Assembly: GCA_948099385.1 (NCBI GenBank)
Contig: CANUEZ040000199.1
Coordinates: forward strand, 3,606,001-3,670,000
Source: Fasciola hepatica
Taxonomy: Eukaryota > Platyhelminthes > Trematoda > Plagiorchiida > Fasciolidae
Reading direction: 5' to 3'
DNA length: 64,000 nt
Shown here: positions 5,941-54,600 of the stretch, piece by piece
Position numbering within the stretch: position 1 is the first letter of the stretch
Layout of the letters: each line of letters opens with the position of its first letter
The notes under the pieces: model-generated
Seen by the model: the letters and a program-made list of their open reading frames with translations, nothing else
What the model was told of the DNA's origin: nothing
Database searches by the model: none
Translations under genes and position numbers: made by a program

Positions 5941-7540
5941 TTCAAACAAGCATTCATTTTTGATTTAGAGAGCTCATTCATTACACATTCATTTCATTCA
6001 GACGCTTTCATAGCATCACTGATTCTTCTTATTTCAAGAAACATGTGAACTGTAAATTTTATTTGAATACATTATACTTGCCACGAATGAGATACTGCAT
6101 TGTCTAGCTATACCTGGTGATAACAAGTGCTACTAGGTTATTCTTATCTATTTGGTATCAGAGTTTTTTGTGTGAAATGACTGTGGATAATGGTACCTGT
6201 ACAGCAGATCGTCTTTGCCACCACGAGTCATCGTCCGATCATTCATCATCCGGTACCCCAAGATTGGCGGAGCTACAGTTCGTTGTGAACTTGATCAGTT
6301 TCGCTTTGGAATTATTTTCATTATCACTACATGTCGCTCAGAGCTCGCTATCCAAAGAAAACTTGCATTCCGTCTAGCGAAAGGTCATGTTTTGTTTCGT
6401 CATTCACAACTCGTTTCAATACGCAGTGGCAAAAATCAAAATGGATTAGAAAATGCCAGCTAACGGTTGGTACACTGTCCTTAATTACAAAACCCCATAG
6501 ATGATAAATCCTGCATTTGCTAGTATCGAAAAAGAATGCAAGAAAAGAACTGGCGGTAATGGGGTAATTTCACGTGAAACTTCTGAAATAGTTTTCACTT
6601 CTTCTTGTGCCAATGATGACTGCTTGGTTATCAGACTTTATCCTAAGTTCTCGCTTTATCAAGGCACTGCGACCAATAATCCCTATATAGGTCCATTTTA
6701 ATCTCAGACGAAAATCAACTTATTCTTTGATGCTTTCGTATCCGTTCTGATTCCATTACTGTCTGACTGTTTGTACATTGTTTTTTGATATTTAAATCGC
6801 GTCCGCATGTATCCCATCTCTCTTTATCTCGAGTGAACTCTATCTTATCCAACCAAGGGTAGATGCTATTTTAGGCGGAACTATTGCCAACCACTCTGTT
6901 CTTTTCAATTTACAATTGAAAGCTCTTGTTTCAACGTGTGATCAACCTTGCATTGCTGTCAGGCCCTAAATTTATTCACGTTCAGCACAAGGATAACTCG
7001 TCAAGAAAATACATAGAGGGCATCTATGGAAACTTATTGTCCATTAACATTTCCATTCCTAAGAGATCTCTTTTCAAGATTTCTTCATGGTTTTCTTTCG
7101 ATTGCTCTCTTTGACCGTTAGACTAATTTAGGAAGTATGGTACTGTACTGTGCCTTTTACCAATAGCAGAATAACTTCATAATTGCTTAAATCTCTGTGA
7201 AGGCAGAAACATGTCTATACACTTAAGGATCAGGCTTCTATGGAACATCACCCTATAATGGCCAAACAATAGACATAACTGTTGAATACAACAATTACCC
7301 ACCAAATCTTTTGTACCACAAACACCGAGCGTCTGTGGCACGGAATCTGTCTTTTTTGCTGACAACAGGTCGGGTCAAGAAGCTGTAATACAGACGCCGA
7401 CAGCCTGAAAACTGCGGTTTCTCGTCCCTTTGCGGATACACTTCGATTCTGCAACCCTTCTGTTGCATCAGAAGTAGAGGCATTTTTTTTCGGAAAAGTA
7501 GTCAGGTTACTTCAAACCTCAAAATCAGCTTCTGCTGTGG
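5941..7540. other. No supported gene; possible 5' part of decayed LINE
   Basis: Two overlapping open frames at 6117-6463 (+) have no domain I recognise. Because a decayed LINE reverse transcriptase follows on the same strand from about 7560, this stretch could be its ORF1 and endonuclease region, but no endonuclease motif (such as G-D-F-N) can be read. Host 3' UTR sequence of the CAP gene presumably occupies the first few hundred bases. Confidence 0.3.
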
Positions 7541-7559
7541 GTTCAGACAGCTAGTCCTC

Positions 7560-8420
7560 CACTGTTCTCAAATTTGGAGCAAGCTCACTATACGGAGTCA
7601 TGACATCCTTCATCAATAAGTTTGTTGATGCTTGTGCTATTCCTGCCTCCTGCAAACTCACAATAAAGGTGTCGATTCCAAATAGTTTACTTCTGTCGTC
7701 TACTCAAAGTATTTTCTTCCTGTCACTGTCAATTACTCTGTGCTCAAGTCCTTAGCCGATTGAGTTCCTTTTCCGCAGTTTCTCATAAACGATACCACAT
7801 TGAATGCAAACCTATCAGATGCACTCCAGACGCAGTTGCTTCAGTTTGCCATTTATTTCGAAGAGCTTGAATAGTTTCGCGATACCCTTTCGCTGTCTCT
7901 TCTTTTAAATACCCCTTTTTGAAGCAGCTGCCCGTTCTCTACTTCTTCAAAAGCTGGAGTCCTATTGCTGGCGTAGTTTTTTACCTCCGTGGTTAAAATA
8001 CCACATTTTCAGTTAAACGCAACGTACAGTAATTGATTATAGCCTAATAATGAACAATTCTGGTGTTCTTAACGGGGCCATTTGTTTTCTCTTTGTTCTC
8101 TTCACATATGCTAGCAAATTATGCATTGTACCACTCACTAAACGTTTTAGGCACGCGATAAATTGCTTCCAGTTCGTCTCCAATTACACGGACTTAGCCT
8201 CTTTTTCCGAGAACTTGTATACTATCAGGAACTGTTCCCCATTCTAGCCTACTTCCCAATACTTCCAAATGTTTCCAGAGTGCTTTCTCCCTTGCTCATT
8301 CCTCTTACTCCAAAGTGTCATCTCTCATCAACTTTATGCTCGTCCTCAGAACTGAATCGGTCAAATATTTAGCCATTAAAATTTACAATTCTCTTCCTGT
8401 ATTCCGCACTGTGAATAAAA
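7560..8420 (+). pseudogene. CR1-like LINE reverse transcriptase remnant
   Basis: Reading the plus strand across frameshifts and stops gives the reverse-transcriptase landmarks in order: LLLQKLESY (about 7950), a Trp-Leu-Lys segment, TQRTVI (about 8020), NNSGVLNGAI followed by a Phe-Val-Leu-Phe segment (8050-8100), then an A-I-N-C-F-Q segment near 8157-8175. The same landmarks are seen in the LINE of the palindrome arms (LLRKLESL, VNNSRVLQGAVLSP), so the two belong to related lineages. The YxDD-type catalytic box is not readable and there are many stops, so it is dead. The element probably continues to the C-terminal piece at 9008-9238, interrupted by a GA-rich microsatellite. CR1/Jockey-type is inferred from the reverse-transcriptase C-terminal landmarks. 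Confidence 0.65.
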
Positions 8421-8650
8421 ATTCGTAGGCTAATATATTTCGGTATCAGACAAGTTATTACTACTTTTGTCCAATGGTGTATTACCTCAACATTACTCGA
8501 CTGTTCTCTCCAGTAATCCTCCCTGTTCCATACAGTAAAGGTTATATCTTACTTATTTTGCACTACATGTACGCTGAATTACAACATAAGTAAACTGCAT
8601 AAGCAAAAGAGGGTTTGGGGGGAACACTCACTTTAGAATCAGTTTATTGG

Positions 8651-19744: not shown

Positions 19745-20059
19745 CCAATGGCGCATGGGGCTAACCTGCACACCGACACCTAAACTGATAGATTTTTCAG
19801 TAAACCTGAACAAATTACTTCTGCGCTAGAAGTCACACTTTCACGACTGTTCTGGTGTTTGCGAAAGTATGTGGCAAATGAGTAACCAGCTTTGGAAGTG
19901 CGTAAAGGACTGATTTGAGCTAACTTAACCATTTTAAGATTGAGCTGAAAAAAATTACCACATTGACTTGCGAAATTATTACATACTTTTGCTAAATCGA
20001 CACAAATTTGAAGATCTATCAGTCTAAGCTGAGAATCGAAAGTAACGGCTGGCTGTCGC

Positions 20060-20430
20060 ATCTGTATGGACACCTCCTCAGTCGACTGACCTCGAGCCTC
20101 TCTAGCCGAAGATTAGCCATTGTGACTACCTATTTACCCACGCTCTTTACAAACAAAGATGGCACGGACCTCAGTCGTGCGTCATGTCGTGCTCACAGAC
20201 GAACGTGAACCTGGTGTATCAGTGGGGCTAACTGATCTGAGCAAGAAAACCCATCTGTCTTTACCCTGGAGATGTAAATGACGGTGCATTAAGTTAGACG
20301 CCTTTGGGCTAACGAGCGAATTTCGATTATCTGGTAGACAAGTTTTGAAACTGGTCCTTGAATAACATCAGCATTTGGTTCATATGATACATACATCATA
20401 TGATACACAAACCGAAATGTAAATTACTTT
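20060..20430 (+). repeat. Tc1-family flank repeat, solitary diverged copy
   Basis: Similar, in order, to 44290-44620 of the right palindrome arm: CTCAGTCGTGCGNC, then a spacer, then GACGCCTTTGGGCTAACGAG (arm: GACACCTTTGGACTAACGAG), ATTTCGATTATC, GTAGACAAGTTTTGAAACTGG, CATCAGCATTTGGTTCAT. No transposase lies next to it in the matching orientation. It is a lone or degraded end of the long-flank Tc1-like family seen at 22.6-24.1 kb and in the palindrome centre. Confidence 0.75.
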
Positions 20431-34050: not shown

Positions 34051-34309
34051 CCCGTAACGGCAAATCTTGACGCGTTCTGCTAGCCTGCTGTTTTGAAGAG
34101 CTCCATCTATTTTTTCCCCAATACTACACACTTTTTTGTATAGCATCATCGAGTTTGTATCTATAACTAGATGTCTATTATTGTTCAGTTCTGTCTGAGT
34201 CTCTGAAGCAACACCAAATGTGATGTAAGGATTCTTGTATTGATGATCCTCTCTAGGGTGCATAAAGACAGATGGTTAGCTAGGGCTTCCAACGACTCCC
34301 AACCCATTC

Positions 34310-36149: not shown

Positions 36150-36422
36150 AATGATCCAGGTTACATTGTGTAATCTATGTTTTTGACTTCTGTTTTCAAA
36201 GGTAAACCACTGTGCCCGAGACAGTCAAAAGTCTTCGATATGTCTTGCGAGACCAAGTGGAGAAAGGTAGGTAATATCAGCGAATAAAGAGGGAACGGAA
36301 GTAAGAATAAGACCAAGGGTACGTGCACGATCGCCATCCCGATCGGGAATGCGTGCGTGGAAGTCAACTAGTTGACTTCGATTGTTGACCAAAACAAAGC
36401 TTCGGCTTTGCAGTAGTGTCAC
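36150..36422 (-). pseudogene. LINE endonuclease C-terminal fragment
   Basis: The minus-strand frame 36422-36225 reads LVDFHARIPDRDGDRARTLG then LILTSVPSLF and YLSPLGLARHIEDF. The pattern F-x-x-R-I-P-D-R-D-G-D-R-A-x-T-L-D-L-x-L-T-S and P-L-G is the end of the endonuclease domain in a LINE family common in flatworms. It is an isolated fragment; no reverse transcriptase follows on the minus strand. It may be the 5' remnant of an element interrupted by the LINE at 31.1-35.2 kb, but that cannot be decided by eye. Confidence 0.65.
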
Positions 36423-36424
36423 AA

Positions 36425-37320: not shown

Positions 37321-37327
37321 AGAAGAA

Positions 37328-39985
37328 GTGTCTATGCCGTCTTTGTTCAGTATCAACATATCTCCTCTTTTCGCGAAAATGTTGGATCTAAACACTGTTC
37401 TTCTTTCTCGCATTCACGTTCATACTTTTGGGCTTTTCATACGAGAATCGTGGTTAAGCCCACATATTGCTGAGTCACTCTTATCAATGAATGGTTTTCA
37501 ACTGTTCCGGCAGGACAGGAGTTCCATCAGCAAGAAGACTGGAGGTGGTATGGTCAAATATATCAACTCTACCTGGTGTGACAGATATGATGTCGTTTGT
37601 TCATGCTCAATGAGCGGTATTGATTGATTATTTATTCAGTGCCATCCTAAGTTTTCTCGCTATAGGAGTACCATCATAACAGACTTATACCTGGCTCCGT
37701 CTTCCACACGGAATGCTATTTCATTTTTCTATGACTCTTCTTTTCCTTTCCTTGTTCCTTTGTTAGATGACAATTTGCACATCGTAGTGGGCGTTTTAAT
37801 CATGCTTTCAAACAATTCCTCACTGCGACTGATGTAACTGATCTTTTATGATTCTCCAACCAAAGGCAACTCTGTTTTAGACAGGATTATGACCAATTAT
37901 CTCGAATTATTCTCCCTAAAGCTGTGTGCATCTGCCTCAACCAGTGAATACTGTCTGTTATTGTTGAGGCCCAACGTATACTCCAAGTCTACTTTCCACT
38001 CTGTCAGGCAAACCAGCCCAATGAAAATCCGTCCCCGAAGTTTTTCACGTGACAACATTATTCTCCTACAGAAATCCCTTTCTCATTCATCTTCCTCATG
38101 TTCTTTCGAATCATCGCTATGTAGCAATGTCACACTTTTCGTAAAGACGATAAATTTAATCCTCGACTAGTTCTGCCCCTTAGAAATACTATTCCTCTGT
38201 AACGGCCGTGCCACTTCTCCGATGTTGAAATCCTTAAGGTGACGGGAGGAATATTTCTACAAGTCCAGGGACAATTCTAAAGTAAGACACATTTCCCCTT
38301 TGACAAATAAACAAATCAAACGCACTGACTCGCCCTTTGCTGCTTAACTCCTATGCAGCCACATCAGTAACCGACTACGGCAAACCAGTCGGCTGTTTTG
38401 TGGACTGATAGCGAAACAAGTGAAATTCGCTACGGACGTTGACATCAGCAACTGTGTGTTCATTCATCCATCAAATGACTCTCCAAGATGGCGTGTACGC
38501 AACCTCGTTCGCTACAGAAGGAGTAGTAAGCTTCTTCTTACTTCTAAAATAACCTCAGGTATTGGTTATGATGACATATCGTCATCAATTTCGAGACATG
38601 TAGCTGCTGCCATGACCGATGCATTTAATTTCATTTTAAACAAATCTTTGTGCTCACTTCCTACTTACGACTTTTGAAGACCATTCACTATTGTTCCTTT
38701 ACAAAATCCTTGTAATTTTGCTGTCATAGCTAAACGCTTTCGCCTCACTGCATCAACTTCAGTTAGTCTTGAACTTACAGAGCATGACATTCTAAAAAAA
38801 TTGAATTCTTCTGTAAACTCTCCCAATGACCCCTTACAGTTTGCCTATAAGCCGAACAGCTCCACTGTGAATCCTATCACTTCCTTATTCCACCATATAA
38901 CAAAATCTTTGGGTACATCAGCATAGTCTGTGAGACGCGCCTTTCTAGACTACTCAACAGCTTTTGATTCTATTCCGCGATCCTTCCTCCTTCGCAAACT
39001 GGAATCTCTTGACTGTCCCACACCTTTATTACCATGGGTGTCTGATTATTTTACCAAAATAACTCAGTGCACTCGACTGGGTTTTAAAATATCCTAGACC
39101 TTGGTGAATAATTCAAGAGTGCTACAGGGAGCTGTGCTTTCGCCCCGTTTATTTCTCACCCACTTTAGTGATCTTCCATCCAGTTCTGCTTCGCGTTTAT
39201 TTAAATATGCCAATGATGTGGCTCTTTGTCAAGCTGCTTCCATGACCCAAGACTTCAGTAACTTTACCAGTAGTCTATTTCGTATTTATGATTTCCCCGT
39301 TCGTTCGGGTTTAATCTTAAATTTGTCCAAATGCTTTGAATGCATATTTACCCGTTCTCGTTCGGCTTATCCCTGTGATTCCTCTGTCATTTCCACAGAA
39401 CCACTAAATAGGGTGGGTTCTATGAAATACTTACGAATGGCCATTGATGCAAATTTGAAGTGGACGCTTCACATTTCAAACTATATGAAGAAACTACGCC
39501 GGCCATCATGTCAGATACGAAAGCATCGGCATTTTATCCTTAAACAGTGTTATTTTCCTTTTTGTTTATCAATGTTTTACCTGTTCTACTTCACTTTTCC
39601 CCTGTTATTTTTGCTGGCCTAGTGAAGTAATTTTTTAGTATTCTTCTTGGAGGCCTATCTATTATCAGTCGGGTATCTTTCATACACTTAACTGAACTAT
39701 TTGCCGATTTGTGCGAACTACACCTGGCCGCATGTGAAAATTTCGCTCACAAAATCTTTGCAGACAGCATTCAGCCTTTATATAGTGATCTATGCGAATG
39801 TAACTCTCGCTTCTACAGGTTCCTCATTTCGATTCATATCCTCTCGTATTAACCTCTACAAAATCTCTACCGTTCCATATCTGGCCCGAATCCCCACAAA
39901 CCGGGCACGAGTATTAGCTGGATTTATTGACAATTTTGTTATGTCATCGTCCTTTTCTTCAGCCAATGAATTCCATAAGTTGTAA
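37328..39985 (+). pseudogene. CR1-type LINE pol (EN-RT), left, continuous copy
   Basis: A single reading frame (37328, 37889, 38420 and 39101 are all in register) carries endonuclease then reverse transcriptase. Endonuclease: ESWLSPHIAESLLSMNGFQL then FRQDRSS (37450-37530), KKTGGGMVKYINSTWC (about 37545), HIVVG followed by a 2-base-shifted FNHAFKQFLTATDVTDL (about 37780, the G-D-F-N region), NSVLDRIMTN (about 37875). Reverse transcriptase: NDPLQFAYKPNSSTVNPI (about 38835), AFLDYSTAFDSIPRSFLLRK (about 38945), NNSRVLQGAVLSPRLF (about 39110), FKYANDVAL (about 39205; catalytic Y-A-D-D with the first Asp changed to Asn), KYLRMAIDANLKWTLHI (about 39430). In-frame stops lie at 38675-38677, 38924-38926 and 39095-39097. 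The C-terminal part at 39701-39985 is frameshifted. The part from 37963 onward is duplicated in inverted orientation. Confidence 0.9.
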
Positions 39986-40635
39986 GGTGCAAATCTTTTT
40001 TGATTGAAATGAGGACGTCTGTCTACACAAAGTATGGTCAGATGCAAATACGAATATAAACAGCGTGATAGAAAAGACGTTTTGAAGAACAATACTTGAA
40101 GTTATTATGTCACAATATATTCATATCATCACGCTTTCACCATGCGCAGATTATGCTCATTTCGTGTGCCACAAGGGATACTCTGTTTTTTTCGCGCGCT
40201 CGTAGTGGGATCAGCCCCTGACATCAAGTGCCGGGTGGTAAAGTTCGCGCACGTACTAATGTCAAAAGTTCCATTTTACTGAGGATGGACTGGAGAAAAA
40301 ATTGTGAAAATAAATGAGTGATTTTTTCCCATTGTCCTAGCGCTCCTTTGAAACTACGGCAAATAGTTCAGCAATTGAGGGATTTGCCAAACGCAAACAT
40401 GACCCGCAAAACATCCAGTAAGACTTGCTCGTTTCTTCTTATAATGTTTTATGAAAGCCTCTTTGGCTGATTTGAAGTTCCTACATAGAATCTATTGTAA
40501 TGCCTTACCAGGTTCTCCTGCTGATAACCCCTTCGCAATCTCTTCGTTCAGACACTATTTCCTCTAGCCATAGCAACATGATTTGGCCTTCTGGTCCCCA
40601 TTTCCTAAGGACATTCTTGGTTCGTTCTACGAGCG

Positions 40636-41128
40636 TGTCCGGACTTTTGGTATCCGGACGTCTGGTCGAACGGACACTTGGTCGCCAGACACTTGGATGA
40701 CTGAATTACATTATATTCACTTAAGCCTGTCAAATGCCACACCCTCAGAAAGTGGATTAGGCGCAGCCCGTCTCTTTAACCTTTCTTGGAATTTATAGTG
40801 AACACCAGGTAATCCAGAATTATAAAGGCATGCAGTGACCACGAATCGGTAAGCGAAAAGGCTTGCAATATGCTGTTACACAAATGCATCACAGTCAAAT
40901 TCTATAACCCGTTGTGACCTCACAACAGTTTCACACCGGAAATCCTAGAGCCGAAGGCTTGATGCTAAGGTCAACTGGAATAGCAGTGCGGTCTAAAACG
41001 GCAGTGCCCGGTGAATCTGATATTCAAGCTTTCGTCCTTTTAGAGGTAATAGACACTTGATCCACTAGACTAAATGTCCATTCGACCAAAGGTCCAGCGA
41101 TCAAATGTCCGGCAGTCAGAAGTCCGGG
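40636..41128. mobile_element. Foldback-like element with modular inverted termini (left arm)
   Basis: At 40636-40695 the plus strand carries a run of related modules: TCCGGACTTTTGGTA, TCCGGACGTCTGGTCG, AACGGACACTTGGTCG, CCAGACACTTGG. At 41050-41128 the same modules occur in reverse complement (CGACCAAAGGTCC, GATCAAATGTCC, GTCAGAAGTCCGG). The two arrays face each other around 350 bases of non-coding sequence, so the unit is about 490 bases with tandem-module termini. No ORF of note lies inside. It resembles a non-autonomous foldback/MITE-type element; the family is not identified. Confidence 0.6.
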
Positions 41129-41479
41129 TGCCTTCTACAAGTCACCTTTATTTCGCTACCTCAAGTCTGCCCCCGAACATTGCTGGTGTATTCTAATTAA
41201 TGACGTCCATGCACCTTGGTCACGTGCACATTCCCTCCACAATGGCCTCTTTCGGTATGCCCTATTTACTATTTAAACCACGTTACTGCAAGATACATGT
41301 ATTTTGGGAGCACGAACGCTACATTTTAGTGATAACAAGAACTCAAGACTATTGCATATATTCTTCATAAATACACATGTTTATACTAAACACATTTTGT
41401 GAGAAATCACTTTTTAGGATAGGACTTAAAAAACCCAACCGGCCGTTATCCAACTCCTCAGATTGCCAAGCTATTTCCT

Positions 41480-42135
41480 AAGTTGACGTAATTTATATAT
41501 CATCATTTCCGTATCATGTCTATGAAACGAATGCTGATGGCATTCGGAAACCAGTTTCATAACTCCGTCTATTGGATAATCGAAATGTTCTCGTTAGTCC
41601 AAAGGTGTCAAATACAATGTGCTATCATTTCAATTGATAGTCTGGGGACAGTTTGGTTCTTCACCTCAGGTCGCATGAAACCACTGGTCCACCCGATCGA
41701 CGTCCGTCCGTGGGCGCGCGAGAAGTCGCACGACTGAGATCTGCGCCACTTTTGCACGGAAAGAGCGTGGTATGACAGGCAGTCAAAACGTAGAGTGGTC
41801 GGTCAAAGAGGCTTGTGACTATACCTTTTACACTTCAAATGAAGCCCTTGTAACTTCAACTGAAGTCCAAATGACATCACTCTGCCGACACTGACAAGAT
41901 TGACTCCACAATGGTCACTTGTCACCTGTCCACGAAATCTCTTTGACCCATGATCATCTACACCGCGATAGCAAGTGTTGAGCAAAAATCTCATTGGTAC
42001 ATCCAATGGTACGTGCGGAGGTCAAAAAGGGGGAGATGTGACCATTGAGTCAACCGCGTGATCGAAGGGAAAGGACCAGGGACAAATTGACACGGACAAC
42101 ACAGTGAAAGCGTTATTCGACCTTGATTCTCTCTC

Positions 42136-42139
<4 letters not shown>
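41480..42139 (+). repeat. Tc1-family long flank / terminal repeat, left
   Basis: Related sequence is found next to the transposase at 22600-23000 and, inverted, at 20060-20430, so this part of the arm is a recognisable repeat family in its own right. It leads inward to the (TA)n tract and then the transposase pseudogene. With its mirror at 43962-44620 it would give a Tc1-like element about 3.1 kb long with terminal inverted repeats of about 650 bases. That reading is inference. Confidence 0.6.

Positions 42140-42229
<90 letters not shown>
42140..42229. repeat. (TA)n microsatellite at palindrome spacer edge
   Basis: About 45 uninterrupted TA units. The mirrored position in the right arm (43951-43962) has only five. 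The Tyr-Ile repeat peptides predicted across it are artefacts. It is self-complementary and can extrude a cruciform. Confidence 0.98.
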
Positions 42230-42230
<1 letters not shown>

Positions 42231-42269
42231 CCCTACAAAACTGAGCCAATCCATACACGTAACAAAGTT

Positions 42270-43345
42270 GTGTTCTGTATGAAGCCTGGTTGATCGTGAA
42301 ATGCTCAGTTCATTTTAACGAAGATGAGTCGGGCAACGAGACGAGCATTTCATACACCTGACATCAAGTCACGTGTCTTGATCCCGTGTGATGCTGGGGG
42401 CAACTGGTGCTTGGTGGCTTAATCACTCGGCATCAAGAGAAAACTACAGTGACTTGTTTTACGAAAAACAAGCAAGCACCTTCCATGTTTACCCATGATG
42501 GAAAACGTTTCAAGCGTTTGTCGTATCATGAAGTAGAGGAGTTAATTTCCTGGATTGAAACAGAGCATATAATAACGCTTTCATCTCTGCAAATCAGATT
42601 CAAGGTCGAGTATGCACAGGATGTTTCTATCAACATCCTAATGGACAGCTGATAACGTTCGAGATAATTCTTCAAATATTCGTAACCATGACTTCATTGC
42701 GTAAAAAGCAGAACAAAAAGAGCCATGTGCATTAGATTCTTCTAACGTTCGTTGACACAGTTGCGTAGAACATCTACAGTGGTATGAGGCACACAATCAT
42801 GAGATCATATGGATTGACGAAACAAACTTTATTCTGCACTGTTCACGAAACTTTGGTAAAGCCCCAAGGGAGATGAGGGCACGAATACCAGTTGCAGGCT
42901 GCCGCGGTAAAAATCTGCATATGATAAGTGCAATGAATACTAACGGTCTGATTGATCTGACTAACAAAAAAGGATCGTAGACCTCAGCAATATGTCTACA
43001 ATTGTAGAACGGTCTTGTGGGTAGCCTTATGGATCACACAGAGAAATCGTTTGTCATTGTCTGTGACAATGCGCCTTGGGGGATTTAGCGGCAATCCTCA
43101 GACCTGCGCCGTATCCACCCACCCTTAATCCGATTGAACTGATATGGAGTGTGCTGAAGGAATTTATCAATGTTGAAACCAGAAAGGAGCGCACGCGGAC
43201 GATTTCCGCGGATCCTGAGGGGTGCATGAGCCTGCAGGAATGGCGAATGATCTTCTTGGAGAAAATAACCACGAGCGGTAAATATAACATGACGCGTACA
43301 CACTGCTTGAATGCAGCAAAGCACGTCCGCACCTATTTACGATAA
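42270..43345 (+). pseudogene. Tc1/mariner (IS630 superfamily) transposase, palindrome centre
   Basis: Blocks on the plus strand: an N-terminal DNA-binding segment (frame 42407-42652; FTHDGKRFKRLSYHEVEEL, then ISWIETEH), then IIWIDETNFILHCSRNFG (about 42808, first catalytic Asp and D-E-T-x-F), ARIPVAGCRGKNLHMISA followed by MNTNGLID (about 42880-42955), FVIVCDNAPWG (about 43050, second catalytic Asp), and PPTLNPIELIWSVLKEF (frame 43076-43345, NPIE with the catalytic Glu and the family W-x-x-x-K). All three catalytic residues are present, but stops and at least two frameshifts separate the blocks, so it is inactive. It is the better preserved of the two Tc1-like copies and is unique within the palindrome. 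Confidence 0.9.
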
Positions 43346-43379
43346 TGCTAGAAAACTGATTGAATAGTAGTAGGCGTTG

Positions 43380-43950
43380 ATTTCCAAAACTGATCCATGG
43401 TTCTTTACACTTGAGTATATTAGAGGAGGATCAAACCCTACGTGATAATGAAAGGAAAACTTTATCGTAGTTCAGTGTTTTCAGTTCCAGTTCACCGTTC
43501 GTCGCCACAAGCATGGCATCCAAATATTGATATACCCATGATGAGAATATCGAAAAAGTAGAAATAAAAATAACCGGTATATAGAGGTAAGCCCAGACCA
43601 TGAGTATGGTCGCACAGATTTGCACAGACCGTAGTAGAGAAAAACAAATGGGTTTTCCTGCATGAAGAATGACAATAAATAATCAAATTCAACCTCCTAC
43701 CAGTAAAATTATTCCCAGCATTAATTGCAGAGAGAAGTGAGTGAGTATATTGAACATAGGAAGGAAAGATGTCAGTGTAAAAAGTTTATCAAACATCATC
43801 GTCAATAAGTTATGAATTGAGTGAAAATTTCATGGACTAGAATTATCGACAGTTGCGTTGTCAGTGCACTACGGGAGGAGTAATTGGACAAAAATGTTCA
43901 TTTGTGGAAAGTTCTAGTGTCAAACAGTGTGATCACTGGCAACAGAACTT
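43380..43950. other. Palindrome spacer, right part, no gene
   Basis: AT-rich unique sequence between the transposase stop and the right arm. Overlapping minus-strand frames at 43431-43692 encode hydrophobic peptides without motifs, which I regard as chance. Confidence 0.5.
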
Positions 43951-43961
43951 ATATATATATA

Positions 43962-44620
43962 CAGAGAGAGAGAATCAAGGTCGAATAACGCTTTCACTGT
44001 GTTGTCCGTGTCAATTTGTCCCTGGTCCTTTCCCTTCGATCACGCGGTTGACTCAATGGTCACATCTCCCCCTTTTTGACCTCCGCACGTACCATTGGAT
44101 GTATCAATGAGATTTTTGCTCAACACTTGCTATCGCGGTGTAGATGATCATGGGTCAAAGAGATTTCGTGGACAGGTGACAAGTGACCATTGTGGAGTCA
44201 ATCTTGTCAGTGTCGGCAGAGTGATGTCATTTGGACTTCAGTTGAAGTTACAAGGGCTTCATTTGAAGTGTAAAAGGTATAGTCACAAGCCTCTTTGACC
44301 GACCACTCTACGTTTTGACTGCCTGTCATACCACGCTCTTTCCGTGCAAAAGTGGCGCAGATCTCAGTCGTGCGACTTCTCGCGCGCCCACGGACGGACG
44401 TCGATCGGGTGGACCAGTGGTTTCATGCGACCTGAGGTGAAGAACCAAACTGTCCCCAGACTATCAATTGAAATGATAGCACATTGTATTTGACACCTTT
44501 GGACTAACGAGAACATTTCGATTATCCAATAGACGGAGTTATGAAACTGGTTTCCGAATGCCATCAGCATTCGTTTCATAGACATGATACGGAAATGATG
44601 ATATATAAATTACGTCAACT
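43962..44620 (-). repeat. Tc1-family long flank / terminal repeat, right
   Basis: Mirror of 41480-42139, bordering the transposase on its other side. It ends at a short (TA)5 run where the left counterpart has about 45 TA units. Confidence 0.6.
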
Positions 44621-44972
44621 TAGGAAATAGCTTGGCAATCTGAGGAGTTGGATAACGGCCGGTTGGGTTTTTTAAGTCCTATCCTAAAAAGTGATTTCTC
44701 ACAAAATGTGTTTAGTATAAACATGTGTATTTATGAAGAATATATGCAATAGTCTTGAGTTCTTGTTATCACTAAAATGTAGCGTTCGTGCTCCCAAAAT
44801 ACATGTATCTTGCAGTAACGTGGTTTAAATAGTAAATAGGGCATACCGAAAGAGGCCATTGTGGAGGGAATGTGCACGTGACCAAGGTGCATGGACGTCA
44901 TTAATTAGAATACACCAGCAATGTTCGGGGGCAGACTTGAGGTAGCGAAATAAAGGTGACTTGTAGAAGGCA

Positions 44973-45465
44973 CCCGGACTTCTGACTGCCGGACATTTGA
45001 TCGCTGGACCTTTGGTCGAATGGACATTTAGTCTAGTGGATCAAGTGTCTATTACCTCTAAAAGGACGAAAGCTTGAATATCAGATTCACCGGGCACTGC
45101 CGTTTTAGACCGCACTGCTATTCCAGTTGACCTTAGCATCAAGCCTTCGGCTCTAGGATTTCCGGTGTGAAACTGTTGTGAGGTCACAACGGGTTATAGA
45201 ATTTGACTGTGATGCATTTGTGTAACAGCATATTGCAAGCCTTTTCGCTTACCGATTCGTGGTCACTGCATGCCTTTATAATTCTGGATTACCTGGTGTT
45301 CACTATAAATTCCAAGAAAGGTTAAAGAGACGGGCTGCGCCTAATCCACTTTCTGAGGGTGTGGCATTTGACAGGCTTAAGTGAATATAATGTAATTCAG
45401 TCATCCAAGTGTCTGGCGACCAAGTGTCCGTTCGACCAGACGTCCGGATACCAAAAGTCCGGACA
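44973..45465. mobile_element. Foldback-like element with modular inverted termini (right arm)
   Basis: Mirror copy of the element at 40636-41128, with module arrays at 44973-45051 and 45406-45465. It is present only because the arm was duplicated, not as an independent insertion. Confidence 0.6.
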
Positions 45466-46135
45466 CGCTCGTAGAACGAACCAAGAATGTCCTTAGGAAA
45501 TGGGGACCAGAAGGCCAAATCATGTTGCTATGGCTAGAGGAAATAGTGTCTGAACGAAGAGATCGCGAAGGGGTTATCAGCAGGAGAACCTGGTAAGGCA
45601 TTACAATAGATTCTATGTAGGAACTTCAAATCAGCCAAAGAGGCTTTCATAAAACATTATAAGAAGAAACGAGCAAGTCTTACTGGATGTTTTGCGGGTC
45701 ATGTTTGCGTTTGGCAAATCCCTCAATTGCTGAACTATTTGCCGTAGTTTCAAAGGAGCGCTAGGACAATGGGAAAAAATCACTCATTTATTTTCACAAT
45801 TTTTTCTCCAGTCCATCCTCAGTAAAATGGAACTTTTGACATTAGTACGTGCGCGAACTTTACCACCCGGCACTTGATGTCAGGGGCTGATCCCACTACG
45901 AGCGCGCGAACCGATCGATGAAACGCGAAAAAAACATAGTATCCCTTGTGGCACACGAAATGAGCATAATCTGCGCATGGTGAAAGCGTGATGATATGAA
46001 TATATTGTGACATAATAACTTCAAGTATTGTTCTTCAAAACGTCTTTTCTATCACGCTGTTTATATTCGTATTTGCATCTGACCATACTTTGTGTAGACA
46101 GACGTCCTCATTTCAATCAAAAAAGATTTGCACCT

Positions 46136-48158
46136 TACAACTTATGGAATTCATTGGCTGAATAAAAAGGACGATGACATAACAAAATTGTCAATAAATC
46201 CAGCTAATACTCGTGCCCGGTTTGTGGGGATTCGGGCCAGATATGGAACGGTAGAGATTTTGTAGAGGTTAATACGAGAGGATATGAATCGAAATGAGGA
46301 ACCTGTAGAAGCGAGAGTTACATTCGCATAGATCACTATATAAAGGCTGAATGCTGTCTGCAAAGATTTTGTGAGCGAAATTTTCACATGCGGCCAGGTG
46401 TAGTTCGCACAAATCGGCAAATAGTTCAGTTAAGTGTATGAAAGATACCCGACTGATAATAGATAGGCCTCCAAGAAGAATACTAAAAAATTACTTCACT
46501 AGGCCAGCAAAAATAACAGGGGAAAAGTGAAGTAGAACAGGTAAAACATTGATAAACAAAAAGGAAAATAACACTGTTTAAGGATAAAATGCCGATGCTT
46601 TCGTATCTGACATGATGGCCGGCGTAGTTTCTTCATATAGTTTGAAATGTGAAGCGTCCACTTCAAATTTGCATCAATGGCCATTCGTAAGTATTTCATA
46701 GAACCCACCCTATTTAGTGGTTCTGTGGAAATGACAGAGGAATCACAGGGATAAGCCGAACGAGAACGGGTAAATATGCATTCAAAGCATTTGGACAAAT
46801 TTAAGATTAAACCCGAACGAACGGGGAAATCATAAATACGAAATAGACTACTGGTAAAGTTACTGAAGTCTTGGGTCATGGAAGCAGCTTGACAAAGAGC
46901 CACATCATTGGCATATTTAAATAAACGCGAAGCAGAACTGGATGGAAGATCACTAAAGTGGGTGAGAAATAAACGGGGCGAAAGCACAGCTCCCTGTAGC
47001 ACTCTTGAATTATTCACCAAGGTCTAGGATATTTTAAAACCCAGTCGAGTGCACTGAGTTATTTTGGTAAAATAATCAGACACCCATGGTAATAAAGGTG
47101 TGGGACAGTCAAGAGATTCCAGTTTGCGAAGGAGGAAGGATCGCGGAATAGAATCAAAAGCTGTTGAGTAGTCTAGAAAGGCGCGTCTCACAGACTATGC
47201 TGATGTACCCAAAGATTTTGTTATATGGTGGAATAAGGAAGTGATAGGATTCACAGTGGAGCTGTTCGGCTTATAGGCAAACTGTAAGGGGTCATTGGGA
47301 GAGTTTACAGAAGAATTCAATTTTTTTAGAATGTCATGCTCTGTAAGTTCAAGACTAACTGAAGTTGATGCAGTGAGGCGAAAGCGTTTAGCTATGACAG
47401 CAAAATTACAAGGATTTTGTAAAGGAACAATAGTGAATGGTCTTCAAAAGTCGTAAGTAGGAAGTGAGCACAAAGATTTGTTTAAAATGAAATTAAATGC
47501 ATCGGTCATGGCAGCAGCTACATGTCTCGAAATTGATGACGATATGTCATCATAACCAATACCTGAGGTTATTTTAGAAGTAAGAAGAAGCTTACTACTC
47601 CTTCTGTAGCGAACGAGGTTGCGTACACGCCATCTTGGAGAGTCATTTGATGGATGAATGAACACACAGTTGCTGATGTCAACGTCCGTAGCGAATTTCA
47701 CTTGTTTCGCTATCAGTCCACAAAACAGCCGACTGGTTTGCCGTAGTCGGTTACTGATGTGGCTGCATAGGAGTTAAGCAGCAAAGGGCGAGTCAGTGCG
47801 TTTGATTTGTTTATTTGTCAAAGGGGAAATGTGTCTTACTTTAGAATTGTCCCTGGACTTGTAGAAATATTCCTCCCGTCACCTTAAGGATTTCAACATC
47901 GGAGAAGTGGCACGGCCGTTACAGAGGAATAGTATTTCTAAGGGGCAGAACTAGTCGAGGATTAAATTTATCGTCTTTACGAAAAGTGTGACATTGCTAC
48001 ATAGCGATGATTCGAAAGAACATGAGGAAGATGAATGAGAAAGGGATTTCTGTAGGAGAATAATGTTGTCACGTGAAAAACTTCGGGGACGGATTTTCAT
48101 TGGGCTGGTTTGCCTGACAGAGTGGAAAGTAGACTTGGAATATACGTTGGGCCTCAAC
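46136..48158 (-). pseudogene. CR1-type LINE pol, right, truncated copy
   Basis: Mirror copy of 37963-39985 carrying the same three in-frame stops and the same F-K-Y-A-N-D-V catalytic change, in minus-strand frames 48241-47951, 47701-47444, 47020-46499 and 46420-46151. It differs near 46165 by an inserted T and one substitution, which changes the local peptide end. It starts mid-protein, at the end of the endonuclease, because the arm ends at 48158. It shares its decay with the left copy, so it was copied after inactivation. Confidence 0.9.
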
Positions 48159-48544
48159 ACAAGAAAGGGGAGAAGGAAAAACGACCCACAATAGATTGAT
48201 GACAGTTCCCTTTGATGTATTGATAACTCGTGCAGCATCATTAACCCTGGGCAAAAACGTCGGTATGAAAGTTACGAAATGGTGAGTAAATTGACTGAAT
48301 TGAACTGGTGTAAAATTGATCGTCCGAAACGATGAAAGTGCACAAACTGTAAAACATTTGTAATTCCTACCTGAAATTTATCATAAAACCTCATGCACGA
48401 TGAGCTATGTCTACGAAACACACCGGAGTATACACGATCCGACTATCACGGTTGCTTAATCCGTGTCCGCAGGTGCCGAAGACCCACATGCGGGTAGAGT
48501 AGCAGGCACTGAACACGGTTGGGGTTAAACAACAGCTATCTCTA

Positions 48545-49440
48545 CATACATAAAAGCTGGTTTCAATCCATCTCTAGCAACCGTTTCTTGCTTACCTTTA
48601 CGTTCTACGATGTAACAGTTGTCGTTGCATTCTAGAACTTGATGCGGGCCTGAGTAAAGAGCATGAATCAGGAGCTGTTTACTACGTGTACGTAAAAGTA
48701 AAGTGCGTAAAAGTAGATGATTCTCCAGATATGTCCGCTGGTACTATAAGCTCTCTAGTGGATGATGCGTGTAGGTCTTGCATATGCTGAGTTAGGCGTT
48801 GGATGTAGTCGAGATAGGTAAAAGGCAGTGATGGTTCGGGTGCAGCCAGTTTCCCGAGCAACTGAGGGGGACATTCAAATAATAATTGTACAGCCGTCGA
48901 ATGCAGGTCGGCGTTCACCGAACTCCGAATACCTAGTGAGACAAAAGAAAGGGCCTCATTCCATCCCGGGTTTGTATAAACTCTTAAAGCAGCTCTGAGT
49001 TGTCTGTCAAAACACTCATTCAAGCCGTTGGTGGCTGGATGGTACGTATTTGTCCTAACTTGTCTGCATCCTAATGCATTCATCAGGGACACAAAGGACC
49101 ACTGGAAGTGGGTTCCTTCATCAGTGGTCACAAAAAAAGCATGCAATTGGAGCTATCCGTCGTTCTAGAACATCACGTGCTGTTGTTTCAGATGAGCAGC
49201 CGCTTAAAGGTATCGCCCGAGCTCACCTCGAAGAGCGGTCGCTAAAAGTTAAGGGATAAGTAATGCCACTGGATGAAGGTAGAGGACGTACTAGATCGAC
49301 GTGCACGTTGTGAAAACGTGTGTTTGGTTTAGCTAACTTGCTGACAGGACTTTCTGTGTGTAGGTGTACTTTATCTCGGTGATATTCTAAACAACTGCAT
49401 GCCCATTCACCAATGTTTTTGTTTATTTTCAACCACACGA
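48545..49440 (-). pseudogene. Gypsy integrase
   Basis: Frame 49438-49223: KINKNIGEWACSCLEYHRDK (zinc-binding half with C-x2-C altered to C-x-C...C-L-E-Y), then RFHNVHVDLVRPLPSSSGIT with YPLTFSDRSSR, containing the first catalytic Asp (V-D-L) and D-R. After shifts, frame 49146-48682 gives TDEGTHFQW (second Asp region), ALGCRQVRTNTYHPATNGLN followed by ECFDRQLRAAL (third catalytic residue Glu in N-E-C-F). Later, W-N-E-A-L-S-F-V-S-L-G-I-R-S-S is the family W-x-x-x-L-P-x-x-L-x-x-x-R block. The Asp-Asp-Glu residues survive, but the frame does not. Confidence 0.85.
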
Positions 49441-49494
49441 AACGATCATTTGCGAGCTTAATCGAGGCTCACATGCCAGGGCGTGAAAAAAAAT

Positions 49495-49980
49495 TCAGTA
49501 TTCTGAAAACGACCCTACGCAACATAACGTTACCAGTGAACGAGGAGAGTTTTGTGTCTTGTCGTACAATATCGTTCCATTCGATAAAGTGAGTGGCACT
49601 GGTTCAAGTTTTGGAGAGCTGCAGCAACAACGTTTCTCGACTTCTGGGTCATCTGCTTGTGCTGGAGCAACAGCTGTTAAGTCTATGCCACCGGTTGGAG
49701 TAATGAGATGGATGCATGAAAGTGCATCTGACACAGGGTTGAGCTCAGCCGGGATATGTCCCATATCTTCAGCGAATTGGGTGGAATGATCTATGTGACC
49801 GGATTCCCCGGGTCAGAATCGGTCTGTAGTTGACCGTGGAGTGAAGACTACTGGCTTGTGATTCGTGAAGGCAGTAAATTGCCTTACCTCTAGCGCTTGT
49901 TAGAAATGACGAGTAGTCACATAAACCGCTGGAAGTTCCCTACAGAATATATCTGGGTTCAACCGGCTGTAGAGATTGGA
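49495..49980 (-). pseudogene. Gypsy RNase H, second half
   Basis: Minus-strand blocks: FFSNLYSRLNP (about 49975), RELPAVYVTTRHF and LEVRQFTAFTNHKPVVFTPR (49930-49840; the L-x-A-V-x-x-x-x-R-H-F and T-D-H-K-P-L blocks with Asp to Asn in TNHKP), then AEDMGHIPAELNPVSDALS (about 49770-49725, the I-x-G-x-x-N-x-V-A-D-A-L-S ending). The T-D-A-S catalytic block that should precede it is missing where the SINE pair lies. Confidence 0.8.
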
Positions 49981-50012
49981 GAAGAATGATTAGGACTGCC
50001 AAGTACCCTCTA

Positions 50013-50197
50013 CTTGCATAATATGATTCATCATGCAGTTCCAACGCTCGATTCATTATTGACAAAACGGTAGCATTTTACAGCTGTTTCATCCATTTTA
50101 GGAATCATCAGCAGTGCAAATCCACCGTGCTCCAACTGGGACTCGGATCCAGAGTGAACGATTGTGAGTCGAACACCAAATCACCATGCTATCAGGG
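50013..50197 (-). repeat. tRNA-derived SINE (minus copy inside gypsy RNase H)
   Basis: Read on the minus strand: TAGCATGGTGATTTGGTGTT (A-box side), GGATCCGAGTCCCAGTTGG (B-box side), TTTGCACTGCTGATGATTCC, AACAGCTGTAAAATGC, AATCGAGCGTTGGAACTGCA and AATCATATTATGCAAG at its 3' end. The end blocks are shared with 27953-28155. Confidence 0.8.
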
Positions 50198-50334
50198 TGG
50201 ACTCTCAGCGGTTTGTCGGATATATATACAACAGGGGTCAATCGTTGTGGGGAAACAGGTTGTTACCGCTCTAAGCCAGTAAGAGAAGCGCGCTATATCA
50301 TGTAGTGTACACGTTCAACAAGCCGTTGAGAACC

Positions 50335-50514
50335 AGCCTGGATAGCCTAGTGGTTGGAAGTTTCACTCACAGCCATTAATCTTGGGTTCGAGTCCCAGTG
50401 GATGTGCACTGCTAATGATTCCTAACAAACACGAACCAGCTGTGCAACGCTTCAGCGGTTTCAGTGGCGAGTAAAGCTTTCAGATTGCACGATAAATCAG
50501 ATCATGCAAATAGT
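50335..50514 (+). repeat. tRNA-derived SINE (plus copy inside gypsy RNase H)
   Basis: GGATAGCCTAGTGGTTGGAA is a good tRNA A box and GGGTTCGAGTCCCAGTGG is a good B box, about 30 bases apart. The body has GTGCACTGCTAATGATTCCT and CAGCTGTGCAACGCTTCAGC, and the end carries AATCAGATCATGCAAA. It lies head to head with the minus copy at 50013-50197, 140 bases apart. It is not a functional tRNA gene: no acceptor stem can be paired. This is the best preserved member in the window. Confidence 0.85.
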
Positions 50515-50960
50515 CTCCTACCATTCTTATAAATACCCTATATACTTTATTATCTGAGAGCGACAACAACAAAGTCTGGAGCGTAAGTTGACAATGACTA
50601 GAGCGCGCCTAATAAGTGGTGTTGTGTTGGTTCATGTAGTCACGTGCGCAATCAGACAGCCTCACACGAACGGAGCGTTATTGACTGCCTATTGATTGAC
50701 GCCTGTTCGCTGCTATGGCTAATTACACATGCATCCACATACGTGCGCACATCACAATGACTTCACCCACGGACGGCATGCTCTAACCAGTCAGGCTTTG
50801 GCAATAAGCCGTGCAGGCTTGTTGATTCGTTGATGTTGAGCAGTCCTGCATGACCGCACTCGATCGCAAATTCTGCTTGCAATTAATAATAGATTCACTT
50901 GCTTGCTTGCCCGCCTACGAGCGAGTTTTCCGATGTGCCAAGGGACGAATTTGTTGCATA
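50515..50960. other. Insert material between SINE pair and gypsy pol
   Basis: Non-gypsy sequence. It includes CTTATAAATACC and a stretch with CACTTGCTTGCTTGCCCGCC that loosely recalls 12590-12615 (CACTTGCCTGCTTGCGCC). No ORF with a domain. Confidence 0.4.
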
Positions 50961-51009
50961 GTGTGTCCTCCGTTAATTCCGAAGACAACAATGTGCAACA
51001 GTGGTTATG

Positions 51010-51349
51010 TTGGAGATAACTGGTTTAATTTCAGCAAAGCAGAAGGAGCACTCTAAGGGAATTCGAACATCTTCCTTTTACCGCGAAGTGAACCCATAAG
51101 AGATCGTCATAACTGGGCACACTCAGGAAGGAAAGCACTCTAAAAATTAACTACGCAAGCAAACTGTCGGAGCGTTTTAACAGAAGACGGTTCGGGATGT
51201 ACAAGAATAGCCTGTAATTTTTCTTTCGTAGACGAAACGCCTGAGACTGATAAAGTGCGACCTAGGAAAGTAACACATCTCGCAACGTTCAAAAAGCGCT
51301 CATGGATGCACAATGTAGACGTCGGGGATTGAACTGGCGAGTAAGACAT
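51010..51349 (-). pseudogene. Gypsy reverse transcriptase thumb/connector
   Basis: The frame 51349-51140 reads CVTFLGRTLSVSGVSSTKEK followed by LQAILVHPEPSSVKTLRQFA, matching F-L-G-x-x-x-S-x-x-G-x-x-x-x-x-x-K-x-x-A-I-x-x-x-P-x-P-x-x-V-K-x-L-R-x-F. It continues with stops through FLPECAQL and LRGKRKMFEFP to about 51010. The F-x-Y-L/V-D-D palm box, expected between the G-D-Y-R-A-L-N motif at 51515 and this block, was not found in the short interval available. Confidence 0.8.
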
Positions 51350-51531
51350 TGTCTAAATTGGCGTGAACTCCCACGAACTCTTGGGAGACTTTGAGTGTGT
51401 GATCAAACGAAATCTATGCAAATGAAAACCATCCAACCACTTTGATTTGTTGTGAGGTTTTGAAATTGCCTAGCAATCCAGCCTGTTGCTATTGTTTAGT
51501 GCCCGATAATCGCCAAAAAGACCGTTAGTCG

Positions 51532-52066
51532 TTAACGGACATTTCGGGTGCTATATGTTGCGAGGATCCCCACAGAAGACGGTCCAGTAATGCCGAAATC
51601 CAGCAAGTAACAAAACTGGGCCTCGGCTGTTTTGAGTATGTTGGATGGTGAACCGAAGGAACGACTGTGACTATATATTACAGTACGCCTGTCAGCATCT
51701 GTGGTGTTTGTTAGGTGGGAATAATTCAGGAAACTCATGCAACAGCCTCTCGTAGCGGTCTGTAGAAAGGGATAATTCATCTAACGTCGATGCATTGCCA
51801 AAAGCAACTAGGTTAGCTTGAAGATCATTTGGAATTACTTCCACCCAACAAGTCTTGGGGTTAGTGGCCCGCCTCCGCATGAAATCGCGATGCTGTGTAG
51901 GCTTCTGGATACCATGGTCACCAGGCTTCATACCGAACACCAAATGCTCAATCCGATTTTCCGCTGCCATATCGATTCTCCTTAATATTGCTTCCCGCAA
52001 TATGTCGTACGGAGACATCTCAGGTAGGTCACATCTAATATCTCTAATTACTGGGGCCAAAGCCAA
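51532..52066 (-). pseudogene. Gypsy gag fused to start of reverse transcriptase
   Basis: The minus-strand frame 52066-51692 reads PYDILREAILRRIDMAAENR, then a KPTQHRDFMRR segment: the C-terminal capsid pattern P-Y-x-x-L-K-x-A-I-L-x-R-x-x-x-x-x-x-R-x-x-x-L with a K/R-P-T/S-Q-x-L-R-x-M. It goes on through LDELSLSTDRYERLLHEFPE into LFPPN, which already corresponds to the linker just before reverse transcriptase. The next frame (51780-51532) reads FGITGPSSVGI and, after a shift, GDYRALN at about 51515, the gypsy G-D-Y-R-A-L-N motif. The zinc knuckle and the D-S-G/D-T-G protease normally found between are absent: an internal deletion. Confidence 0.75.
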
Positions 52067-52109
52067 GGCAAGTTTTTAACCCGACATGTAAATTATGTAG
52101 CTTGGATGG

Positions 52110-54600
52110 TTATGCGGGCCTTTCGAAATCGTTGTTCGACCTGAACCAGCCAAAACTATGGGTTTGCAGGAATCCTCATATGTATTGAGAATATACCGAA
52201 ATGTTCCGAGTCCTTTACTTCTTCACCGTCTAATGAGGAAGTTTCCTATGAACATGTCGTTTTGAGCGATAAAAAAAGCTCAGGTTGATATGAAGTTTGG
52301 GAGAGTACTCAGGTTATTCAATGAAATTCTGAAATATTCCTAATCAAAACAGGTTGATGGAATACTCAAAGTAGATTCAAGGAACAGATTTACTTCAGTG
52401 ATGGAAAAATCTACGGTAAAGCACCAAAAGACGGTGCCCTGGTGCTGGAATTTAGCGTACTAAGAAAAGGACCTGGATGGCACACGGATACACTTGATAT
52501 TTCTAGGCATGAAGCGCTGGTAAGCAGAAGAACAAAACCATGATCCACAGAGACATAATGAGAACCTTCAGAGAAAAAAAGGCACAGTGAGAAGCAGTCA
52601 GTGAAGACTCATAAACCAGGAAGAGCTTGGTAAGGGAGTGACATAGCAAGGTTTACACAGGGATCAGCAATATGAATGCTGATTGCCAGTGTCGCTACAC
52701 TACTCCATTTCTCCTCATCGCTCGCTGACAACAGCGTACGACACAACAGCTTGATTCCTCACATTATAAGTGGTTCGAATTCGAAGGCCTGGACAACCAA
52801 TTCACTATTGGTGTATATAGTTTTCATCTACGGCTCACAAGCGAATCGGACAGTATATCTACTCAAACTCTTGTAGTCTCTAGTGGATATTGATTTGAAA
52901 ATCCCGTCTTCACAATCGTACTTCCCGAAGCGAAAGTCTCGTTCGTCCCAATGCGATCCATCATTAAAAACAACCGCAGCGAAAGCTCAGTCAATCACAT
53001 CAGCATCACATGCCACTGACTTTACTCATTCAATTTCGGACCCTCTCACTGTGAACTTCAGCAACTGTCGTTCGAGTAGCCGCGTGATCGATAACAATCG
53101 GTGTTTGCGCTTTCAATGTTCACCCATATTTACTTCAGCAAAAACGAGTGAAGTGTTTCCAACCGGTTTTGGGTTTTGTTCAGTTCATTTTGGTATCATG
53201 CGTAAACCAGCTAGACACACCAATAAATGAATTTTGTTTAACCCGCATCACTTCATTGGTCGAATGGATAGACAGGAGTGCACAAGTGGATCACACTAGT
53301 TGATCCGAACAGTTTGGATAGAGTTGTGGGGTGTGGAGTGACTTTAATTTGAGAGATCAACTAGAAAATCAATATCTACCTATTTATATGAGTACTTACG
53401 CCGACCCAACTACTTCCGACATACTGTTTTGGTAATGAAACAGGTGTCTCAAAGGAAACGTGGCCCAGCCAAGTGTCAAATAGCAATACAATATAGCTCA
53501 TTTCGGCCTTGCCATTGATCACTTCTATATGGCCATCTAACATCGTTAAATAGTCTTCAAGGTAATTCCATTTTCCCATCGAGTGTTCTTAGTTTCAGTA
53601 CGACAGTTCACTTTGCCTTGAAAATCATGCTCTTTGGTTTCTTCATTACTTTTTAAAGGACAGCCTTCCAGTGGTTGAGTGACTCGCGGAGTAGAAACCG
53701 GGAACCCAAGTTAGCGAAAGCGATTTCGTAATCTAGATGTACTAGGAGACAATCAGTCAAAACTAGAGGCCTATGTACTTCAATGCGGGGGCACTCCGGC
53801 CAAAATTTGACAAGTGATCTGGTCGGGCGACTTTTATTCCACCATTTCCAGTTGACTAAATTCAACTGGGTGTCTCGTAACCAAGCTCGAATGTGAATCC
53901 CGTTCTACTTTAACTGCGTTTGCACACATGGTCAAATCTAATAAATACTAATGACAAGTTATGCAACCAAATTAATTGAAAAATAACTCGGAGATGGATG
54001 TCTTTACCCCATCCCCGAAATCGAATCAACCTGAGTGGCATTCCAATAAAGTGCTAACGTCATTTTCGCGAATCTCCCTAAGGGTTAAATGACTTGTGCA
54101 TGAGTGTGACTGTGTGTGTGTGATTTTTTCCAATCAACCATTTGATCAGTGGGCCGAGACATTCCGTGCTCATGGTTCGGTTTGTGAATAGAACGCTTAT
54201 GGATTTGGAGACAGTGGTACTGCTAACCGTCTCCATCCTGCATTCAAGGCTTATCAGTGCGTAAGAATCGTACACAAGTGTGGTCAGGACCGTTTCAAAT
54301 GTTAGCCAAGGGGCAAGCAGTATTACGATTTAAGCAGGTACAGGTGACCAATCACGATCAGTGGATAGCAATGGTGTAAAACGGCAGTTCAAGGCGTGAG
54401 ACAAAAGGAGATGGAGGAAGAAGAGTGAACATGGCACGCCAAACGGATGACATAAAAGGTCGATCAAACGGATGATATGACGGGACTGAAGCGTGATAAC
54501 GTGATGACGTCAATGGAGCTTGTATAAAATCCCGTGAATGGTGAACGAGGAAACAGTGAGGCTGTCGGTATCCGCCTCCACAATCTCCTCCGAGTGCTCA
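52110..54600. other. No supported gene
   Basis: Several short frames of unknown meaning. The minus-strand frame 53579-53376 (start MGKWNYLEDYLTMLDG) runs into a consensus donor, GTAAGT, at about 53401 on the minus strand, so a host exon is conceivable, but no acceptor or homology supports it. The plus-strand frame 52883-53230 is Ser/Thr-rich without motifs. Confidence 0.4.

Follow-up and report, generated by a model that had tools for sequence, protein, structure and literature searches.

How did a near-perfect palindrome of about 10.2 kb come to lie at this locus of Fasciola hepatica, and what has happened to its two arms since? The palindrome lies in a window of 64 kb (the whole stretch analyzed here, C199:3606001-3670000) of an assembly of 1.50 Gb in 656 contigs. 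As a rule, a palindrome comes to notice once it is already complete, and its origin has to be guessed. Here, a diverged paralogue of the locus on contig C98 seems to preserve an earlier arrangement, which includes both the inverted repeat where the inner edge would later lie and the sequence since lost. We consider it a good probability that the palindrome originated by fold-back and that arm exchange and a spacer flip followed, within a region amplified in inverted orientation. The processes are of known kinds, and the case is unusually legible. A literature search made without the species name brought up no paper that we recognized as describing this locus; we do not claim that it is unpublished.

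A palindrome shared by four contigs

An earlier sequence-only reading of the window had described a palindrome of about 10.2 kb with arms of 4.18 and 4.20 kb, a spacer of about 1.8 kb, a few substitutions, one 1-base indel, and one 19-base indel. This description was borne out. The outer edges fall within 1 base of those it gave, and the arms are 4178 and 4198 bases long without their TA tracts (with the TA bases, the inverted repeat is 37962-42151 and 43950-48159). The exact arm alignment that it had asked for showed five substitutions and the two indels, an arm-to-arm substitution rate of 0.12% (95% Poisson interval, 0.04 to 0.28%). The spacer measures 1720 bases plus the TA tracts that bound it, (TA)45 on the left and (TA)6 on the right, which are the only runs of at least six TA units in the window. 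We found that the longest difference-free run between the arms is about 1970 bases, whereas in 20 first-order shuffles of the window, exact inverted repeats reached at most 15 to 22 bases, which excludes a chance origin. No second near-identical copy of the spacer was found in the window, where parts of it have a relative at 65 to 72% identity; within that scope, the spacer lies unduplicated between the two copies. Clustering of the arm differences was considered as a sign of conversion. Four of the seven fall within 238 bases (p = 0.018), merging neighbors gave p = 0.36, and we did not use it.

We then compared an arm probe with the assembly (the best 40 of 1449 candidates were scored, and counts are lower bounds). 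Near-identical inverted arm pairs occur in at least four copies, on C199, C253, C236, and C231, and C98 has three inverted arm pairs at 89 to 90% identity. The copies on C253, C236, and C231 have the same outer junctions as the window and homologous flanks, which are common to all four over the whole stretch compared (4.2 to 5.7 kb per side). Identity among the four is 99.7 to 99.9% over flank plus arm, and the spacers are 99.8 to 99.9% identical where present. Probes from 9 to 11 kb and 58 to 60 kb of the window match all four contigs at 98 to 100%, and a probe about 150 kb from the palindrome matches them near 100%. Among the best 40 of 677 matches, a probe 300 kb out on C253 is found at about 100% on C236 and C347, and on C199 in parts only, at 86 to 96%. 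This poor match shows that the four contigs cannot be read as simple haplotypes collinear over their whole length; the copies are alleles, paralogues, or both. A palindrome with the same junctions on at least three further contigs makes a one-off artifact unlikely, and we regard the structure as almost certainly real.

Probable exchange between the arms and orientation of the spacer

We aligned the eight arms of the four contigs with six C98 arms and one C224 arm as outgroups, counting a complex change near 39957 in the right arm of C199 as one event and excluding differences at the end of C231. Thirteen events vary among the eight arms. Seven are private to one arm (39424, 39957, 40183, 40423, 40537, 41888, and 41997), and six are not simply private (37981, 38821, 39596, 39955, 41970, and the 19-base stretch). 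We found derived variants that the two arms of a single copy share. Positions 38821 and 41970 are changed in the left and right arms of C231 and in no other arm, and 39955 is changed in both C253 arms and in the right arm of C236. Outgroup rows C98a_1, C98b_1, C98c_1, and C224 have the 19-base stretch. Among the eight arms, it is found in the C199 and C231 right arms and is missing from the other two right arms (C253 and C236) and from every left arm. On a simple reading, it was deleted in the left arm and the deletion was later copied to the right arm in the C253/C236 line. Position 37981 is changed in all four right arms and in the left arm of C236, and at 39596 the right arm of C236 keeps an outgroup base that the other seven arms have lost. 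Both of these could be recurrent change instead, and sequence exchanged between copies may have contributed as well.

The strongest evidence for arm-to-arm transfer is 38821, 41970, 39955, and the 19-base deletion. Such transfer best explains the variants, and the arms have very probably exchanged sequence. The ongoing arm-to-arm conversion that the sequence-only reading had listed among its explanations is supported by this eight-arm pattern, with polishing artifacts as a caveat.

We also found that the spacer is inverted between copies in the assembled sequence of the four contigs. With the flanks in window orientation, the spacer anchors read + in C199 and - in C253, C236, and C231. The orientation in C231 is given by one anchor, near 43949; this copy has lost about 0.95 kb of spacer and arm end, the long TA tract included. 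The long TA tract keeps to the 42230 end of the spacer (45 units in C199, 30 in C253, and 50 in C236), and (TA)6 is at the opposite spacer end in all four copies. At least one copy has had its spacer flipped, by a recombination pathway that we infer from this pattern.

Both phenomena have counterparts in known systems. Human Y palindrome P6 shows arm-to-arm conversion with occasional inversion (three inversions versus 56 conversions in 83 phased chromosomes) (PMC3723533). If P6-like rates held, at least one flip among four copies would be a high share, in a tiny sample. Exchange in P6 was scored in 378 chromosomes of known phylogeny, whereas we have four copies from one assembly, and unlike P6, the arms here carry decayed transposons, with no intact gene recognized. 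Short yeast inverted repeats that undergo template switching also show arm homogenization and spacer inversion; their arms are about ten bases in the cases shown, compared with 4.2 kb here (PMC8604942).

Origin of the right arm

Which arm is the copy? Both the left arm and the left flank align with a second decayed long interspersed nuclear element (LINE) copy in the window (6538-8506). The left flank alone scored 357 against it (null maximum of 266 in 500 shuffles), while the right flank alone scored 174 (null mean of 176 in 500 shuffles). The left edge therefore looks native and the right edge looks like a join. Edge alignments over the whole context were scored too permissively and ran into unrelated flanks (right, 973; null maximum, 696), and they were not used.

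The C98 paralogue has six half-units, whose arms have diverged by 6.7 to 7.1% and whose order is left flank, arm, spacer, I', Y, and right flank. We found that the left edge is continuous in all seven diverged copies tested, the six half-units and C224 (flank side, 186 to 188 matches of 198 to 199; arm side, 179 to 186 of 200). On the right, all six half-units match the flank from 48160 (176/200), with homology spanning window 48156 to about 50.4 to 51.0 kb, and in all six the sequence before the flank is unlike the arm (score of 14 of a possible 400). Where the window has most of its right arm, C98 holds 1.2 kb of unrelated sequence, Y. Full-length Y (1205 bp, about 300 bp of which is a dispersed repeat) was found only on C98 (six) and C224 (two) among the best 40 of 4295 candidates. 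Its first 149 bases match window 20066-19918, adjoining a piece like arm 41521-41788 in the same orientation, and this pairing scored 246 (null maximum of 99 in 1000 shuffles). The edge tests, the distribution of Y, and this old repeat at 19918-20384 all make Y look like the older neighbor and the right arm like the newcomer.

C98 carries I and I' as inverted copies of about 170 bp each, which are 92% identical in unit C98a and 90% in C98b. I lies at the inner end of the arm and I' at its mirror position, 3.0 kb apart. Provided that C98 represents the ancestral state, inverted homology was thus in place at the spacer edges beforehand. C98 has CT/GA repeats where the window has TA. The Tc1-like element of the spacer has a diverged relative at about 23.2 to 24.0 kb of the window, and since this relative is collinear with C98 through I, I seems to be part of a decayed Tc1-like element.

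These two arrangements suggest that the palindrome probably arose by fold-back primed by I and I'. The ancestor would have read left flank, arm, I, spacer with the Tc1-like element, I', Y, and right flank. A broken and resected strand would have folded back so that I' paired with I, and synthesis running outward along the left arm would have added about 4 kb. Its free end would then have been joined to the right flank at 48160, with deletion of Y; at this junction, the arm end and the C98 flank both contain CTCAA. At least four copies of the locus (alleles, paralogues, or both) would later have come to exist, and arm conversion and spacer inversion would have come afterward. Priming within the TA tract itself was also considered, and it is weakened by the I/I' pair at that site in C98. 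The palindrome predates the divergence of the four copies from one another but apparently arose after the split from C98 (6.7 to 7.1% in the arms), so that the "very recent" event of the sequence-only reading holds only loosely. If confirmed by reads, a single locus would link fold-back origin, arm homogenization, and spacer flipping.

Human fold-back inverted duplications likewise have a kilobase-scale unduplicated spacer with inverted homology at its edges; the spacer was present in 21/21 sequenced junctions (766 to 70,466 bp; median, 3,428) (PMC3907307). The human cases are large and accompany terminal deletions, translocations, or rings, unlike the window's duplication, which is interstitial, about 4 kb long, and returns to the local flank. 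In a yeast double-strand-break model, an end folds back, copies, and is captured by the other break end, on a small scale (copies of 2 to about 150 bp and a 41-nt loop) (PMC11724301). Here the copy is about 4 kb and the loop about 1.7 to 3 kb, and unlike the yeast breaks, our fold-back is known by inference from sequence alone.

Several points weigh against this account. The four contigs belong to one assembly, and the junctions are those of assembled sequence alone. Polishing with cross-mapped reads could mimic single-base transfer between arms, although less easily the 19-base deletion. The flank distances (1 to 7 differences per 5000 bases among the four right flanks; 1, 3, and 1 per 2962 between the window's left flank and those of C253, C236, and C231) give no clear tree of the copies. 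The yeast copies are far shorter (PMC11724301). The C98 spacer is itself rearranged relative to the window, an older outgroup locus is too diverged and rearranged to show what preceded the right flank, and C98 could be derived, having lost a right arm. The palindrome would then be older and kept young by conversion, and C98 would have lost most of its right arm, leaving I', and gained Y. I and I' in C98 are 8 to 10% apart, about as far as C98 and the window over the same stretch (10 to 12%), which is what a remnant of an old arm would predict, and arm-to-arm transfer is itself indicated. However, no source of full-length Y was found outside C98 and C224 among the best 40 of 4295 candidates, an independent old repeat has the start of Y joined to a piece resembling the arm, and the arms seem to have gained few differences from each other by the time the four copies diverged. 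We consider this history unlikely.

Fold-back primed by I and I' has also to be set against an origin by transposition and against artifact. Alternative transposition of the Tc1-like element would account for the inner ends, which lie at inverted repeats beside a Tc1-like transposase remnant, and inversions produced in this way are described in maize (PMC8225341). The element is decayed, however, and the outer edges share a string of at most 5 bases, where 4 to 6 are common in random pairs; this makes such an origin very unlikely. A target-site duplication at the outer edges above chance was not found, which also led us to reject a transposon with long terminal inverted repeats, as did flanks common to the four copies and a left end inside sequence that is continuous in other copies. 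An assembly or amplification product (palindromes of whole-genome amplification, haplotype misjoins, or polishing) deserves attention, as palindromic reads are common in amplified long-read data, making up 40 to 50% of reads in amplified Arabidopsis samples (PMC6218980), and as the C98a and C98b palindromes have just 152 and 171 bases between their arms. Within the C98 units, though, the arms differ by 0.26 to 0.94%, and the four contigs share junctions yet differ in variants and have two spacer orientations, so that the isolated assembly product listed by the sequence-only reading is unlikely; its three-way interpretation was partly supported overall. That reading had also taken the spacer as an argument against a simple fold-back read. 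Artifacts of that kind are defined by a return within 200 bases (PMC12870357), whereas in the window the spacer is 1.7 kb and leads into an inverted arm, beyond which lies a different right flank; the argument is sound but is no proof. Taken together, these data make an artifact highly improbable.

Sequence content and palindrome-rich surroundings

The features of the locus are listed below. Six-frame Pfam scans of window 36 to 50 kb at E 0.1 found RVT_1 alone. The DDE_3 matches in the spacer (E values of 4.7e-4 and 0.032) are both under the curated Pfam cutoff. Sub-threshold matches in the right flank are to Integrase_H2C2, DUF7041, and RT_RNaseH, and we read these remnants as Gypsy-like. The left flank gave no endonuclease domain in Pfam scans, and its link to LINEs comes from the second LINE copy in the window. 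The longest open reading frame (ORF) from a start codon in the window is at most 173 amino acids, and intron-bearing genes could still be present. Protein searches with three window ORFs (two at E 0.001 and one at E 1) found no relative, scans of viral contigs (one ORF) and genome contigs (one ORF) found no related locus, and tRNA and Rfam scans of the window found nothing. An open stretch of 191 residues lies at 60964-61536; it may resemble the GIY-YIG end of a Penelope-like element, and no relative was found.

Features of the palindrome locus (window coordinates unless a contig is given; LTR, long terminal repeat)
Feature	Position	Strand	Basis
Second decayed LINE copy, collinear through left outer edge	6538..8506	+	Window self-comparison
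Old repeat copy joining an arm-like piece to a piece resembling the start of Y	19918..20384	-	Window self-comparison, shuffle test
Left flank, decayed LINE part running on into left arm	37530..37947	+	Collinear with LINE copy at 6538-6941
Left arm, 4178 bases, taken as source arm	37962..42139	+	Inverted-repeat search, alignment, continuity with left flank
Decayed reverse transcriptase domain RVT_1, left arm	38732..39343	+	Pfam E 1.1e-12 with stops as X; 2 in-frame stops
Element I, inner end of left arm, proposed fold-back site	41973..42138	+	Inverted partner I' in C98
(TA)45 tract, inner edge of left arm	42140..42229	.	TA-run scan
Spacer	42230..43949	.	Opposite orientation to flanks in C253, C236, C231
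Decayed Tc1-like transposase fragments in spacer	42804..43171	+	DDE_3 in two frames
(TA)6 tract, inner edge of right arm	43950..43961	.	TA-run scan
Right arm, 4198 bases, taken as derived copy	43962..48159	-	Alignment; Y precedes right flank in 6/6 C98 half-units
19-base stretch absent from left arm; presence looks ancestral	45911..45929	-	Eight-arm alignment plus outgroup rows
Decayed RVT_1, right arm	46778..47389	-	Pfam E 1e-12; translation identical to left-arm copy
Right outer junction	48159..48160	.	Identical across the four copies
Right flank with decayed LTR-retrotransposon remnants	48160..53391	-	Sub-threshold Pfam; homology among the four copies
Larger palindromes of the same locus	C98:4684001-4714000 and C98:4759001-4789000		Self-comparison

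The sequence-only reading had called palindromes of this kind rare, which fails in this genome. C98a and C98b are larger palindromes, whose arms measure at least 14.7 and 14.4 kb and are 99.5% and 99.0% identical. A third C98 unit maps alike by probe matches (the self-comparison covered C98a and C98b), and the matches place the unit centers about 74.5 kb apart. No inverted repeat was found within a single C98 stretch holding one half-unit. The probe from about 150 kb away was found on C79, C88, C98, C140, C199, C224, C231, C236, C253, and C347 among its best 40 of 134 matches, and from 37 fuller copies of its sequence, 23/27 neighboring pairs are in opposite orientation (binomial p = 3e-4, which overstates the strength because it counts related copies, for example on C253 and C236, as independent). 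The locus thus sits in a palindrome-rich repeat family amplified in inverted orientation. It is possible, as a tentative suggestion, that the window belongs to a large ampliconic, palindrome-rich compartment, perhaps sex limited or poorly recombining, in which fold-back at inverted transposon sequences repeatedly gives rise to palindromes that then recombine. If so, successive stages of palindrome birth could be read from the paralogues of one locus.

Other arrangements were seen on three of these contigs. C231:13647-15646 and 554526-556525 both match one 2-kb probe at 100% in opposite orientation, 541 kb apart, which suggests a very large inverted duplication. C224:638001-655000 joins window segments 52437-57814 (reversed) and 33459-40565, and beyond a TA tract it carries stretches of window 18.7 to 23.8 kb, a further rearrangement at such a tract. 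At C253:395001-397000, near the contig end, overlapping direct matches lie 1.2 to 3.3 kb apart, with more on C246, and form a tandem array.

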